From contig WAOW01000001.1 in the NCBI GenBank assembly GCA_015521085.1, positions 1 to 64,000 on the forward strand: a stretch of DNA of 64,000 nt. The letters are read 5' to 3'. Positions 21,828-30,024 of this stretch are shown here, piece after piece. Position 1 is the stretch's first letter. Each line of letters begins with the position of its first letter. The DNA is from Candidatus Thermodiscus eudorianus (GTDB taxonomy: Archaea; Thermoproteota; Thermoprotei_A; Sulfolobales; Acidilobaceae). The notes beneath the pieces are model-generated. The model was given only the letters and a program-made list of their open reading frames with translations, made no database searches and was not told where the DNA came from. A program made the translations under genes and the position numbers.

Positions 21828-21864
21828 GTTAAGTTAAATCCATGGAGAGCCCACCTGTAGTGTG

Positions 21865-23046
21865 ATGGGTGAATGCGTCCTGGCAGGCAGGTACGGGCCA
21901 GTCCTATTCATAGTGCTATCCGCCCTGGCGATCTCCACGATGGTCAACGCCCCAGGCATACTGGTCGGCTACGGGCTAGTATTCGTTGTCGAGTACTATG
22001 CGCTCCTAGCCTATAGCCCCGGTAGAGGGACCCTTTACTTCCTAGCCGCACACCTGCTAGCCCTGCTGATACTCCTGTCGACGAAGTCGATATTCCTAAC
22101 AGTAGCAGTCGCCAGCATACTCCTAAGGACCCCCGCCCTCTACATCCTAGGGAGGCTGGGGAGGAGGCTTGGACCACTGGGCCTGGCACTGGGCCTAGCA
22201 GCCCTGGAGCAGATACTAGCCCTAACAACCGCGATAGCATACTATGGCGACGACGGCATACACACGGGCCTCAGCATATACGGGGTACTCCTAGCACCCT
22301 TCACATACATGATGTACAAGTTCACACGGCTACAGCCAGACTCCACAGCCGCTATAGCCGCGGCGGCGTCGCTACTAGGATACTGGTTGAGCCTATACGC
22401 CTTCCCCGTCCCGGCACTACTGGCCGGGGCCCTAGCAGGGCTCGCACTACTGGCCCTCTCAGACAGGATAGGTGCTAGGCCAGCAGCAGTGACCGCGGTG
22501 GTACTAGTCCTAGCGGGTGCGGCTCTGGGAGGGGTAGCGCTCCAGTACAACGCCAAAGCCGCCTTCTACCCCTTCAATCCCCACAGCTGGTCGGGCGACA
22601 GATGGGCTCAGACCCCGGGGACCCAGTGCCCCTACACGGGGAATGTATTCGAGAACACCCACTCGCCGGCCAGGCTCCGTATAATAGGGCAGTGCGTTAC
22701 AGTCGAGGGAGTTGTGAAGCCGGTCCCCAATATAGCTGGGGACGGTGACTACTGCTTCGACCTCAAGGTGGCAAACGACTCGCTACTCGGCATTGGTAAC
22801 CTCGTGTTGAGGCGTGGAGGCCTCCACGTGGAGGTGGTCCCCAGCGACCACTATAAGGTCCTAGGCCCAGTAGGCGGGGGCGTATGCCCCGGCGATAGGG
22901 TGCGTGTGACGGGCGTGTTCGTCGTCGACACGGACCATGGGATGTGGAGCGAGATCCACCCAGCCTACAAGATAGAGGTCATAGAGAGGGGAAGCGGCAA
23001 GAAGTGGCCCGACTGTATAAGGGGAGTGGAATACGAGGGAGGCTAG
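21865..23046 (+). CDS. Polytopic membrane protein with extracellular OB-like domain
   Basis: The product is about 393 residues. About seven to eight hydrophobic helices fill residues 10-225, followed by a soluble domain (230-393) with paired cysteines (TQCPYTG, GQCVTVEG, DYCFDL, GGVCPGD) and an OB-fold-like ending, VRVTGVFVVDTDHGMWSEIH. The soluble part should face outside, where the cysteines may form disulfides. I do not recognise a named family. An ATG directly follows the GTG at 21862. It lies 35 bases after the radical SAM gene and its end nearly touches the FAD oxidase gene. Confidence 0.6.
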   Translation: MGECVLAGRYGPVLFIVLSALAISTMVNAPGILVGYGLVFVVEYYALLAYSPGRGTLYFLAAHLLALLILLSTKSIFLTVAVASILLRTPALYILGRLGRRLGPLGLALGLAALEQILALTTAIAYYGDDGIHTGLSIYGVLLAPFTYMMYKFTRLQPDSTAAIAAAASLLGYWLSLYAFPVPALLAGALAGLALLALSDRIGARPAAVTAVVLVLAGAALGGVALQYNAKAAFYPFNPHSWSGDRWAQTPGTQCPYTGNVFENTHSPARLRIIGQCVTVEGVVKPVPNIAGDGDYCFDLKVANDSLLGIGNLVLRRGGLHVEVVPSDHYKVLGPVGGGVCPGDRVRVTGVFVVDTDHGMWSEIHPAYKIEVIERGSGKKWPDCIRGVEYEGG

Positions 23047-25556: not shown

Positions 25557-25600
25557 TAATACCCTCTAGGCCCACACTTCTAGGCCTGGGGTAGTAGGTT

Positions 25601-28600
25601 TTGACGCTCGACATCTACGCGATCGCCTTGACAGCCCTCCTAGCCCTTATACCAATACTGTTCTACGCGGCCGTGGTAGCCTATGGGAGGAGGGGCTACA
25701 AGCTCCTAGAAGGGATAGCGTTGTCGAGGACTCTCAAGCCCTTCTCCAGGAGGATCCTGGAGGGCATGGCTCGCAGGGGCAGGCTTGCATGGCCTACCGC
25801 GATCAGAGTCCTGGAGGCCTGGGGCGATGCCGGGCTAGCCCAGCTACTCCTCCCACACTCGTGCCCTGGGAGGGAGTGTATCGAGGGGCTGAGGAGGCTT
25901 GGCTACTACGAGTTGATCACGGCTTCCCATTCAAGGGGGTGTAGCGTCGACGAGAAGATCCTCGACGAAGCTATTGTGTTCCATGTGTTGTCAGGCCAGG
26001 AGAGCTATGCCGAGGCGGCGGGCTACCAGTCACCCAGACCCGGGGTCGCGGCCCTCTACTGTGGCGAAAACGTGGTAGAGGTATGGGATGGTGCTCGAAC
26101 ACTATCCTCAAGAAACCTACCAGCAGGAGCCCTGGAGAGGCTGAGGATCCACGTGTCCCCGCGGGCGGTCGAGGGCACGGTTAAGCCGGGGTTTCTAGCG
26201 AGCTGGGGATGCATGGAGGGCGATGAAGCCTCCGAGTACATTGGCATGGCGTACCCGGAGGTCCCGCCTAGCATAGCGGCCATATCATACCATCTAGGCA
26301 TAGAAGGGTCCAGGGCCGAGGTCGTGGCAAAGGCCTTCTCGGCCGCCGTCAAGATCCTAGAAGCCTCGGGTGCCCTGCCCTACACGGGGCTACCCTCCTG
26401 GATAACGACCCTTGTAGAAGACTCAGCCACGGCAGACTGCGGGATCGACCGTGGGACCATAGTGGTCACTGACAAGCCGAGGGCCAGGTGCCCCATCTGG
26501 CTCCCCAAGACTATAGAGGCAGGAGGCCCTATGCCGGAGGGCGTCGACTCACGGGCATGGGCCAGCATACTCTCACTAGCCTACAGGAGGGGAGACCACT
26601 CCTCGATAAGAGGAGAGTGGAGCTGGAGCAGGGACCTCGCCGAACTACTACCAAGCCTCCTACGAGACTCCCCAGACCCGCCTGTAGAGGGGGGCTTCCA
26701 GGTGAGGCCTGAGCACGTTGGCATGCTGAGGGCCACTAAATACAATGTAGTATATGATTGTATACGCCCGGTCAAGTACTGTGCCAGGGCAGCCGGGCTC
26801 AAGCCCCCTGCAGAGGTTCTCGTGAAGCCCAGGGTCCTCACTAAGTCACCCTTCCTAAGGGGGCCCATAGAACCGGTTAGAGCAGCCTATAGGGAGTGGG
26901 GCGGAGGACCGACCCTCTACATCGTGCCCAGCAGGATCATGGCCCGGGCCTCTTCGAATGCTCTAGGCCTGAAGCTGCTGGAGGGTCACCGGGACGTCGA
27001 TGAATGGATGGATTCCGGGCTTGACGCAGTAGCCTCCTGGGACGTAGTCCTTGGCATGCCGTGGTCTGTGAATGGGGCTCCCAGGGTTGTGCTGGTCTAC
27101 CCCGAGGCCTTCCCTGGGAAGCCAACTGGTATAGGCGAGGTCGTCGAGTGGGTGAGGAGTCTCTCCAGCCAGGTGTCGAGGCTCCTAGTCTCAAGGCTCG
27201 CGTACTACCAGGACGCCGAGCTAGTCGGTACCGGGGAGGTCGAGCCGGAGCCCACCGTCGAGATCCGGAGGGACTGGGTCGTGGAGGAGGCTCAGGCCGT
27301 GTTCTCCGAGTACTGGAGCGGCTACAGGCTGAGGCCCTACCAGGAGACTACCATAGCTGCGGTAGTCGAGATGACTGCCTCCAGGCCGGGCCAGCCAGTG
27401 TTCACGATACTGCCGACGGGTAGCGGTAAGAGCGCGATATTCCAGGTGGCCGGGATGCTCTCCAAGAGGCTCGGCTATGGGGGTTACGTGCTAGTCGTAT
27501 CCCCGCTCAGGGCACTCATGAGGGATCAGGTGGACAACGCTAGGAGGAGGGGGTTCACAGCTGAGAGGATAGACGCGTCGGTTACTGGTAAGAGGAAGAA
27601 GCTGGTGGTCACGGCTGCTAGGATGGGTGCATTGGATCTCTTATACGTTACGCCGGAGAGGTTCATGGACGAGGAGTTCGCTAAGCTACTCGCCGAGGCG
27701 CCCCCGGCTCTAGTGGTCTTGGACGAGGCCCACACGCTGGCCAGATGGGGTCCCTCCTTCAGGCCCTCTTACCTGCACGCGGCTAAGATGCTGGCGGATC
27801 TCCGTGAGACTGAGGGCTGGCCTCCCATTGCCTTATTCACTGCTACAGCACCGCCGGACGTTGTCGAGAGCGCGCTTGCCAGTATAGGGTCGCGGCCGGG
27901 CGCGACGATACCCATTAACTTATCGGGGGACGAGGGCGGGGGCTTTAGCTTCCCCGAGGAGGGAGCCCTGGTATTTAGAGGACCTGTCGTGAGGCCGGAG
28001 CTGGTATTCGATGTGAAACCCGCCCCTGGTGATATCGAGAGGGTTGACCTGGCCGGTAGGACTGTCAAGGAGCTGGCGAAGTGGGCTAGTGGAGTGGATA
28101 AGCGGTGGATCGGCATTGTATACACGGGGTTTGTGAAGAGGACCCGTAAGGAGTGGGAGAACGCCGATTACCTGGCAGAGCTGCTATCGGCGAAGACTGG
28201 TCTCAAGACGATCAGCTATCACGGCCAGCTCTCGTCCCGCGAGAGGAGGCTCCGAGAGAATAGGATCTATGAGGCTAGCGTGGCCGGGGACCCCCTGGTC
28301 GTGGTGGCTACCAAGGCCTTTGGGATGGGCGTCGATATACCGAATATCCGCTGGGTCCTGCACTTCACCTCCAGCGATAGTATAGAGGACTACTACCAGG
28401 AGGCTGGTAGGGCTGGTAGGGATGGCAGGGAGGCGAGGATAGTAGCGTTATACAACCCGGCGGACTTCGACGAGAGAATCAGGATGGCGAGGGCCCAGAG
28501 GACCACTCCATCGGCCGTGGCATCAGCTTACAACACACTCCTAATGCTGTGGAGGAGGATACGGGAGGAGGCCGGGGGGAGCCCCACGCTCGTGATCCCA

Positions 28601-29557
28601 ACGCCACTCATACATCCCGACCCGTTGAGCGTCAAGTCGATTAGCATGCTCCAGAGGCTCGGCTACCTGGACTACTGGGTAGTGAGGGTCCCTCTAGCCG
28701 CCTACAGGTTCAAGAGGGGCGAGGACCCGGCCTACTACCTCCCATGGTATATGCATCTAGGCCGCGGGGTTGTTATCGGGCCGGAGGAGAAGCTCAGCGG
28801 TGTGGCGGAGAGGGTCCCTCTCAGATACTATAGGTGTCCCTCGCTGGCAGGCGGGTTCAGGCCCTTCAAGATAATCGCTGGAAACCTCACCGTCTCGGCT
28901 GGGGACTGCGGGGAGCTACTCGACATGGGCGAGGGCAGGGGGTATAACGTGGTTGTGGCCAACCTGTCCCTCGACCGCGACCACGAGCCCATAGAGTACT
29001 TCCCGGCCAACGAGTACAGGATGCTCGTATCCGGTATGTGGCAGGACGAGGAGAAGGTGGAGGCGCTCCACAACCTGATGGAGAGGGCCGTGGAGGCCTC
29101 TAGGAAGTACCCTGGCATGGTGAACGAGGTCATACGCAGGGGTCTAGAAGAATACTTCTCGAAGCCCCTACTCCTACCGGCCAAGGAGCCCCCGCCAGGG
29201 CTACTGGGGGCCAGGGAAGCCTGTCCAACCCTGCAGGAGTGCATCGACAATATAGTAGATGCTATGGACCTCGCGGTGGAGTGGATCGGGGATAGGGGAG
29301 TCACTCTAGCGGTCCAGGGCGAGGAGTGGGTCCCGTTAATACTCAGGCGGTACACGGCGAAGACCGGTAGACCCTTCCATGGGAGAACTAAGGGGGCCTA
29401 CAACAGGGTGGTCTCGGCCTCTAGGAGGGGCTGGATGCACTTGATGGACTATGGATTCATAATAGCGGTGGTTAGGGGCGTTGGTAAGCCGAGCGTGCTG
29501 ATAGACAGGCTCAAGGGTTACCCCTATGCGGCCCTCTTCATATACAATAAGGCCTAG
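25601..29557 (+). CDS. Giant RecQ-like superfamily 2 helicase with N-terminal membrane anchor
   Basis: The protein has 1318 residues, far longer than ordinary RecQ. Residues 5-29 form one strong membrane helix followed by basic residues (YGRRGYK), so the rest should be cytosolic. Residues 30-570 match nothing I know. The helicase core runs from about 580 to 960: TILPTGSGKSAIFQ at about 602-615, VSPLRALMRDQ, VLDEAHTLARWGPSFRPSY near 706 (RecQ-type motif II), TATAPP, FGMGVDIPNIRWVLHF near 907 and YYQEAGRAGRDG near 932. No clear RQC zinc cluster follows; the last 350 residues are novel. The start is a TTG at 25601. Its end overlaps a PadR regulator gene by four bases. Roles in repair or defence are both possible. 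Confidence 0.82.
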   Translation: MTLDIYAIALTALLALIPILFYAAVVAYGRRGYKLLEGIALSRTLKPFSRRILEGMARRGRLAWPTAIRVLEAWGDAGLAQLLLPHSCPGRECIEGLRRLGYYELITASHSRGCSVDEKILDEAIVFHVLSGQESYAEAAGYQSPRPGVAALYCGENVVEVWDGARTLSSRNLPAGALERLRIHVSPRAVEGTVKPGFLASWGCMEGDEASEYIGMAYPEVPPSIAAISYHLGIEGSRAEVVAKAFSAAVKILEASGALPYTGLPSWITTLVEDSATADCGIDRGTIVVTDKPRARCPIWLPKTIEAGGPMPEGVDSRAWASILSLAYRRGDHSSIRGEWSWSRDLAELLPSLLRDSPDPPVEGGFQVRPEHVGMLRATKYNVVYDCIRPVKYCARAAGLKPPAEVLVKPRVLTKSPFLRGPIEPVRAAYREWGGGPTLYIVPSRIMARASSNALGLKLLEGHRDVDEWMDSGLDAVASWDVVLGMPWSVNGAPRVVLVYPEAFPGKPTGIGEVVEWVRSLSSQVSRLLVSRLAYYQDAELVGTGEVEPEPTVEIRRDWVVEEAQAVFSEYWSGYRLRPYQETTIAAVVEMTASRPGQPVFTILPTGSGKSAIFQVAGMLSKRLGYGGYVLVVSPLRALMRDQVDNARRRGFTAERIDASVTGKRKKLVVTAARMGALDLLYVTPERFMDEEFAKLLAEAPPALVVLDEAHTLARWGPSFRPSYLHAAKMLADLRETEGWPPIALFTATAPPDVVESALASIGSRPGATIPINLSGDEGGGFSFPEEGALVFRGPVVRPELVFDVKPAPGDIERVDLAGRTVKELAKWASGVDKRWIGIVYTGFVKRTRKEWENADYLAELLSAKTGLKTISYHGQLSSRERRLRENRIYEASVAGDPLVVVATKAFGMGVDIPNIRWVLHFTSSDSIEDYYQEAGRAGRDGREARIVALYNPADFDERIRMARAQRTTPSAVASAYNTLLMLWRRIREEAGGSPTLVIPTPLIHPDPLSVKSISMLQRLGYLDYWVVRVPLAAYRFKRGEDPAYYLPWYMHLGRGVVIGPEEKLSGVAERVPLRYYRCPSLAGGFRPFKIIAGNLTVSAGDCGELLDMGEGRGYNVVVANLSLDRDHEPIEYFPANEYRMLVSGMWQDEEKVEALHNLMERAVEASRKYPGMVNEVIRRGLEEYFSKPLLLPAKEPPPGLLGAREACPTLQECIDNIVDAMDLAVEWIGDRGVTLAVQGEEWVPLILRRYTAKTGRPFHGRTKGAYNRVVSASRRGWMHLMDYGFIIAVVRGVGKPSVLIDRLKGYPYAALFIYNKA

Positions 29558-30024
29558 AGGCTGCACCTATCCTCTAACACTACGCCCAGCTTGCTGTAGC
29601 CCTCTCTGATGGCCTCGCATATCTCCCTGTACTCGTCTTCTAGGCCGTGCTTCTTAAGGGCGACGACGCCCTCCACTATATAGAAGATTAATATGTCGAA
29701 TTTCGTCTGGGCCTTCTCCTTGATTATCCTAGCAGCCTCCTCGACGCCCTTACGGGTCAGCTTGTACATTATCCGTTTACCACCCCTTACATTGGACACC
29801 TCGACCCCGGCAACCGTTATCAAGCCCTCCTCCCTCAACTGTTCGAGCAGCGGATATAGCGTGCCCGCGGCCGGCTTCCACCGGTTCCTGGTTATCTCCT
29901 TTATCCTCCTCATGATTTCGTATCCATGCATCGGGCCGTCGAGGAGTATCCTTAGGACTAGGTTTCTCAGGGTCTCCCTATAGGTGCTGGAGGCCTTCCT
30001 GAGCGCCTGTACCCTACTCGTCAA
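29554..30024 (-). CDS. PadR-family transcriptional regulator
   Basis: The 156-residue product has the PadR winged helix (LVLRILLDGPMHGYEIMRRI, AAGTLYPLLEQLREEGLI, KLTRKG) followed by a C-terminal helical dimerisation region. The TTG at 30024 lies right at the predicted transcription start downstream of the TATATGATTCGATATA element, so the message is probably leaderless and perhaps self-regulated. It converges with the helicase gene, so it need not be its regulator. The ligand is unknown. Confidence 0.85.
   Translation of the reverse strand: MTSRVQALRKASSTYRETLRNLVLRILLDGPMHGYEIMRRIKEITRNRWKPAAGTLYPLLEQLREEGLITVAGVEVSNVRGGKRIMYKLTRKGVEEAARIIKEKAQTKFDILIFYIVEGVVALKKHGLEDEYREICEAIREGYSKLGVVLEDRCSL

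Follow-up and report, generated by a model that had tools for sequence, protein, structure and literature searches.

Gene structure and helicase motor

The window analysed here, a stretch of 64,000 nucleotides from Candidatus Thermodiscus eudorianus (contig WAOW01000001.1, positions 1 to 64,000), holds on its forward strand a large gene whose protein joins a RecQ-type helicase motor to an N-terminal membrane helix and to a domain that we read as a degenerate exonuclease. The gene runs from a TTG start to a TAA stop, with colinear open frames in its homologues, and an in-frame TAG at 25595-25597 makes the TTG at 25601 the first usable start. The gene and its three main parts are located as follows.

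25601..29557, forward strand: whole gene, 1318 amino acids (aa)
25613..25684, forward strand: N-terminal membrane helix, about residues 5-28 (hydropathy and conservation; helix 2-40 in the AlphaFold2 model)
26018..26386, forward strand: putative pseudo-exonuclease, degenerate DEDDh (DnaQ-like), residues 140-262 (homologues, alignment, strand and helix order in the model)
27278..28480, forward strand: RecQ-type helicase motor, residues 560-960 (Pfam, RecQ profiles, PDB match, invariant columns)

The motor was recognized by Pfam as DEAD (residues 579-755, 1.7e-23) followed by Helicase_C (residues 850-942, 1.1e-16), and the best PDB match of the 1318-aa protein was E. coli RecQ (1oyw, 1.3e-43). 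Its motifs (TGSGKS; DEAH with the aromatic loop RWGPSFRPSY; FTATA; QEAGRAGRDG) are not chance occurrences, since 28 aligned homologues hold them invariant, and with all RecQ-type motifs in place the motor is apparently intact. An initial annotation, made from the sequence alone, had quoted such motifs, and the RecQ-like nature of the protein is hereby confirmed; its remark that the flanking parts resemble nothing recognizable is also borne out, as Pfam found no family over the N-terminal ~560 and C-terminal ~355 residues.

A degenerate exonuclease domain

As judged from the alignments, the N-terminal part holds a DEDDh 3'-5' exonuclease domain, which is complete in relatives from outside the Acidilobaceae (the family of the window, with Aeropyrum, Acidilobus, Caldisphaera and Thermodiscus) and has lost its catalytic motifs within that family. 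Indeed, the distant relatives, aligned opposite window residues 140-262 and collinear with them, carry the series LDIET ... GHNIYxFD ... IDT ... HRADEDA. Pfam RNase_T matches one of them (L068) at 1.7e-6, and a profile of the four distant domains found first matched the PolC exonuclease (2p1j, 1.3e-8) and the DinG exonuclease (8zef, 1.5e-7) in PDB; a direct phmmer search of PDB with the N-terminal part of L064 gave nothing useful. All seven DEDDh motif residues are present in each of the 11 outside rows (of which L122 and L068 are near-identical to each other). None of the 29 Acidilobaceae rows, that of the window protein included, retains the HN..D segment, which is deleted, or the HxxxxD motif. 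Profile-profile comparison joined the Acidilobaceae domain to the outside domains at E = 1.3e-4. In addition, the AlphaFold2 model that includes the N-terminal part (mean pLDDT 90) displays strands at 149-154, 159-162 and 167-169, a helical stretch, a strand at 198-202 and helices at 210-217, 225-232 and 238-255, an order that would be expected for a DnaQ fold.

The domain is retained although dead, under purifying selection, because the ratio of nonsynonymous to synonymous substitution rates (dN/dS) in this domain lies at 0.05-0.26 among Acidilobaceae pairs with usable dS. Note that the L066/L067 pair (21% identity, for which a different longest frame was apparently taken) was left out of this calculation.

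The probable N-terminal membrane anchor

The hydrophobic helix reaches a Kyte-Doolittle value of 2.58 (19 residues from position 8), the maximum after residue 80 being 1.32, and it is followed by the basic stretch YGRRGYK, which under the positive-inside rule suggests that the bulk of the protein lies on the cytoplasmic side. The helix was surveyed in 29 full-length Acidilobaceae sequences, with the first start codon picked mechanically and a hydropathy threshold of at least 1.8: 14 sequences reached the threshold, 2 more were borderline and 1 (L003) has no normal start. Every relative from the Korarchaeia, together with Pyrodictium sp. SZUA-1443 and L073, also reached it, and all three Archaeoglobi sequences stayed below. 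We therefore take the anchor to be a trait of the family, lost in some genera including Aeropyrum, because the helix is common to Acidilobaceae and distant relatives, compared with a background of 10 in 210 open reading frames (5%) with a lone N-terminal helix of such strength; from this we infer a membrane location for the protein.

It could be argued instead that the hydrophobic N-terminus arose by chance or as a mis-called extension, and that the protein is a soluble RecQ-like helicase, as the internal TTG/GTG starts at codons 10 and 25 and the several genera without the helix would allow. However, distant relatives possess the helix at the same place, against the 5% background, and we consider this explanation improbable. 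The membrane helix named in the initial annotation is thus real, and the mis-called start that would have spoken against it was not found. As a separate observation, one Thermodiscus relative (L003:1501-5454) has no ATG, GTG or TTG before about codon 155, though its anchor region is conserved, which reflects either a CTG start or an assembly error.

Distribution and phylogeny

Using a family profile, the gene was found in single copy in 44 of 48 Acidilobaceae genomes (loci in Thermodiscus, Aeropyrum, Caldisphaera, Hestiella and others), including all 25 genomes that are at least 90% complete, and the four genomes without it are only 55-77% complete. Outside this family it occurs in 2 of 166 genomes of the rest of the order, in 1 non-Acidilobaceae genome among 398 in the phylum sample (1/81 in the class of that genome), in 5/26 genomes of the class of Methanodesulfokora and in 4/59 of the class of the Archaeoglobaceae record. 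The relatives in genome contigs were retrieved with an alignment of the motor; a single-sequence scan of these contigs with the window protein gave 16 pattern-matching stretches, none of which encodes a relative. Viral contigs and plasmids yielded ordinary RecQ proteins only and no member of the family. The patchy distribution raised as a possibility in the initial annotation is not what the family of the window shows, and patchiness holds for the distant relatives only. The initial annotation had also considered that an annotated orthologue family with uniform distribution and a known repair role might account for the protein; the distribution is indeed uniform within the Acidilobaceae, and a known role was not found. 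No description of this archaeal family appeared in the papers searched, most subscription journals lying outside the search.

In the tree, the family (42 sequences) is a single clade (100/99), separated from bacterial and viral-contig RecQ proteins by a long stem of 1.31 changes per column. Within it, the eleven non-Acidilobaceae sequences make up a clade of their own (100/99), and the Acidilobaceae group together except for the Tiamatella lineage, whose placement is unsettled. These results bear on a further explanation, i.e., an ordinary bacterial RecQ orthologue with lineage-specific additions, transferred from bacteria and performing plain RecQ repair. RecQ profiles are indeed the best match among named families (TIGR01389, TIGR00614), and the protein shares with RecQ (1oyw) all helicase motifs, among them the DEAH box followed by the aromatic-rich loop and the QExGRxGRDG motif. 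In contrast, it falls under both curated cut-offs (227.1 vs 640.2 and 188.3 vs 219.8 bits), has neither the zinc four-cysteine module (no cysteine between residue 940 and C1103) nor an HRDC match, carries a membrane helix and extra domains, and belongs to the separate clade on its long stem, so we judge an ordinary RecQ improbable.

Two side observations concern individual copies. Methanodesulfokora possesses two exonuclease-helicase copies (L064 and L068) that are ~75% identical and lie in different contexts, and the copies in two metagenome-assembled genomes, L075 (Archaeoglobaceae AUK153) and L069 (Thermoprotei B50_G16), are broken by frame shifts or stops, through decay or sequencing error.

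Genomic neighbourhood

On its upstream side the gene is flanked by a metallo-beta-lactamase, a radical SAM protein, an unassigned membrane protein and two FAD enzymes, and on its downstream side by a PadR regulator, one unassigned protein, a TP_methylase protein and DUF371; the surroundings consist of housekeeping (metabolic and translation) genes. PADLOC found no credible defence gene in the window surroundings. The gene is not part of a defence island in this genome, and the suggestion of the initial annotation that it might be the core of a defence system is not supported here, for a universal single-copy gene set among metabolic and translation genes. The closest neighbour is the following.

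29554..30024, reverse strand: PadR-family regulator, convergent, its stop codon overlapping that of the helicase gene

A PadR gene lies near the helicase in 20 loci, directly adjacent in most, and the convergent pairing recurs in many Acidilobaceae loci.

The distant relatives present a different picture, and they alone give the defence idea some support: their distribution is patchy, they keep the exonuclease, and two of them lie beside DISARM or OLD/AriA-type genes. Indeed, the exonuclease-helicase of L130 is located just downstream of DrmA, DrmB and DrmC (DISARM) on the same strand, and that of L125 beside an AriA/Old/GajA-type ATPase, while a HepT/MNT pair and a resolvase occur near L129 and an MNT-type gene near L131; among these neighbourhoods we count only L130 as strong. 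The main rival explanation is antiviral or anti-plasmid defence, in which a tethered nuclease-helicase would unwind or degrade incoming DNA at the membrane. In the Acidilobaceae the gene would then be a fixed component of constitutive immunity, its protein recruiting another nuclease to stand in for the dead one. RecQ-like helicases are known in toxin-antitoxin or defence pairs: RqlHI is used outside housekeeping repair (PMC4670107), as is PsyrTA, and the PsyrT profile scores 195 bits on the window protein; unlike in those pairs, no partner gene was found at the window locus. Against defence stand the universal, single-copy and stable locus in the Acidilobaceae with no defence genes nearby, the dead nuclease of the window protein, the fact that the neighbours amount to a clear defence operon in a single case, and the viral contigs and plasmids, which yielded no relative beyond ordinary RecQ. 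Overall, the relatives make a better case for defence than the window protein, for which it appears rather unlikely. RqlH is not known to have an anchor or an exonuclease.

The membrane position also raises DNA uptake, in which a tethered motor would receive or prepare DNA exchanged between cells, beside the crenarchaeal Ced importer. A 3'-5' motor at the membrane would suit this role, and the membrane-associated ComFA offers a loose analogy, but no import gene is found among the conserved neighbours and Ced is probably more widespread than the Acidilobaceae, which leaves little probability for such a function.

Other neighbours were noted in passing. In the window, positions 21862-23046 encode a membrane protein of 394 aa whose C-terminal part is soluble and which matches no Pfam family. 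Immediately before the helicase gene and in the same orientation, a TFIIB-like protein (a zinc ribbon with a cyclin-like part, judged by inspection) is encoded in L021, L022, L032, L057, L061, L065, L066 and L067, which belong to the Acidilobus and Caldisphaera lineages. In eleven loci the gene immediately upstream of the helicase encodes, in divergent orientation, a YdjM-like (PF04307) membrane protein (L036, L042, L044, L045, L049, L056, L058, L059, L063, L071 and L074). In L130, which comes from an Archaeoglobus-type genome, a protein of 1015 aa (L130:3488-6532) is located between DrmC and the exonuclease-helicase; it begins with a zinc-ribbon-like part, is matched by neither Pfam nor PADLOC, and is possibly a DISARM accessory gene.

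Function and origin

Taken together, we favour a membrane-tethered RecQ-type helicase with a pseudo-exonuclease, serving core DNA maintenance in the Acidilobaceae and derived from an active exonuclease-helicase ancestor, a reading to which we give about an even chance. In its favour we count the invariant motor residues and RecQ matches, the conserved anchor, the exonuclease evidence, the selection on the dead domain, the universal single copy, the housekeeping surroundings and the conserved PadR adjacency. The reading frame, its motifs, the order of the domains, their distribution, the missing catalytic residues and the purifying selection are established, and the membrane location, unwinding polarity, maintenance role and defence ancestry are deductions. 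On this view the gene, present once per genome and passed on vertically, encodes an ATP-dependent DNA helicase that a single N-terminal helix would attach to the cytoplasmic side of the cell membrane. The DEDDh domain that separates this helix from the motor has lost its catalytic residues and would probably act as a DNA- or protein-binding scaffold, and the complete motor should translocate and unwind DNA in the 3'->5' direction, by analogy with RecQ. The ancestor would have been an active membrane-tethered exonuclease-helicase, possibly antiviral, of the kind still found in scattered Korarchaeia and others; in the Acidilobaceae it would have taken on constitutive DNA maintenance. A bolder and only tentative proposal is that the relatives and the window protein form a family of archaeal proteins, as yet undescribed, in which a DEDDh exonuclease and a RecQ motor are tethered to the membrane and attack incoming DNA there, and whose nuclease died as the Acidilobaceae made the gene a universal core gene.

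Comparison with known systems helps to place this architecture. The order of exonuclease, RecQ helicase and C-terminal domains is that of WRN, with the exonuclease intact in the distant relatives; the window family differs in being archaeal and in having a membrane helix, and a catalytically complete DEDD exonuclease as in WRN was found neither in the window protein nor in any of the 29 Acidilobaceae rows. Moreover, the WRN exonuclease is of the DEDDy type, as opposed to DEDDh in this archaeal family, and we take the likeness to be one of layout, claiming no shared origin of the exonuclease-helicase fusion. DinG-type proteins (8zef) likewise place an N-terminal DEDDh exonuclease before a superfamily 2 (SF2) motor, in agreement with the profile match given above, but DinG has no membrane helix and its motor is XPD-like with the opposite polarity. 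DpdF shares an SF2 motor of the same general group (the PADLOC DpdF profile gives 239 bits on the window motor), whereas the NCBIfam DpdF model scores 134.5 against a cut-off of 550 bits, with a match limited to the motor, and no dpd genes lie nearby.

Several points weigh against the DNA-maintenance reading. No genetic partner points to repair, and universality could equally mean a constitutive immune role. The pseudo-exonuclease assignment relies on homologues, alignment and strand/helix order; the profile-profile comparison reaches a probability of only 53%, and Foldseek against PDB found no confident DnaQ-fold match when searched with the model of the window protein itself. Since the tree lacks a close outgroup, the active ancestor is a parsimony argument from intact catalytic residues. 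In addition, about 12 of the 29 Acidilobaceae sequences, Aeropyrum among them, have no clear anchor, and one genus (g6; 830-919 aa) has kept the motor without the entire N-terminal half; neither anchor nor N-terminal half is therefore essential to the core function.

If the DNA-maintenance reading is true, archaea possess an exonuclease-RecQ protein laid out like WRN but, in contrast to WRN, attached to the membrane. The family would also show a natural series, at one end a nuclease-helicase that is active, patchily distributed and in one case next to DISARM, at the other a core helicase that is universal and whose nuclease is dead; this would be a traceable case of a possible defence protein recruited for cell maintenance. 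An identity is given in this way to part of a large core protein that had lacked annotation in Aeropyrum, Acidilobus and Caldisphaera, and it offers a single gene for asking what a RecQ-type motor does at the archaeal membrane.

Remaining domains

The rest of the protein was divided into the following segments.

25736..26017, forward strand: alpha-helical segment, residues 46-139, with conserved cysteines (CP ... RGC) (alignment, model)
26387..26827, forward strand: mixed alpha/beta connecting region, residues 263-409, with conserved TDxPR and QVEPWD-type motifs, no known family (alignment, model)
26828..27235, forward strand: Rossmann-like domain, residues 410-545, no catalytic motifs (AlphaFold2 model, Foldseek)
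28508..28720, forward strand: candidate winged-helix-like segment, residues 970-1040, at the position of the RecQ RQC (model secondary structure)
28721..29209, forward strand: beta-rich then helical segment, residues 1041-1203, C1103 nearly invariant (alignment, model)
29210..29554, forward strand: C-terminal Rossmann-like domain, residues 1204-1318, C1208 and C1214 invariant (alignment, model)

When searched against PDB with Foldseek, neither model matched a whole domain significantly, and no confident relative emerged for either Rossmann-like domain. The N-terminal search was swamped by helicase RecA-like matches, and the weak resemblance of residues 410-545 to the RecA-type domain of SF2 helicases (best probability 0.87, E above 0.01) is only a hint. 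The C-terminal matches (CMP N-glycosidase at probability 0.72, Rho, SRP54) were regarded as a general likeness among Rossmann folds. For these parts we also considered DpdF, HRDC, nuclease folds of other kinds and phosphoribosyltransferase, none being supported; the DpdF and HRDC comparisons proposed in the initial annotation explain neither terminal part, the N-terminal one containing the degenerate DEDDh exonuclease instead. For residues 970-1040, Foldseek gave no match, and the order of helices and strands in the model suits an RQC winged helix, so that a winged-helix-like fold is possible. The C-terminal part is modelled with a pLDDT of 93, and the conserved cysteines of the protein, C1208 and C1214 included, could form disulfides of the kind common in hyperthermophiles.

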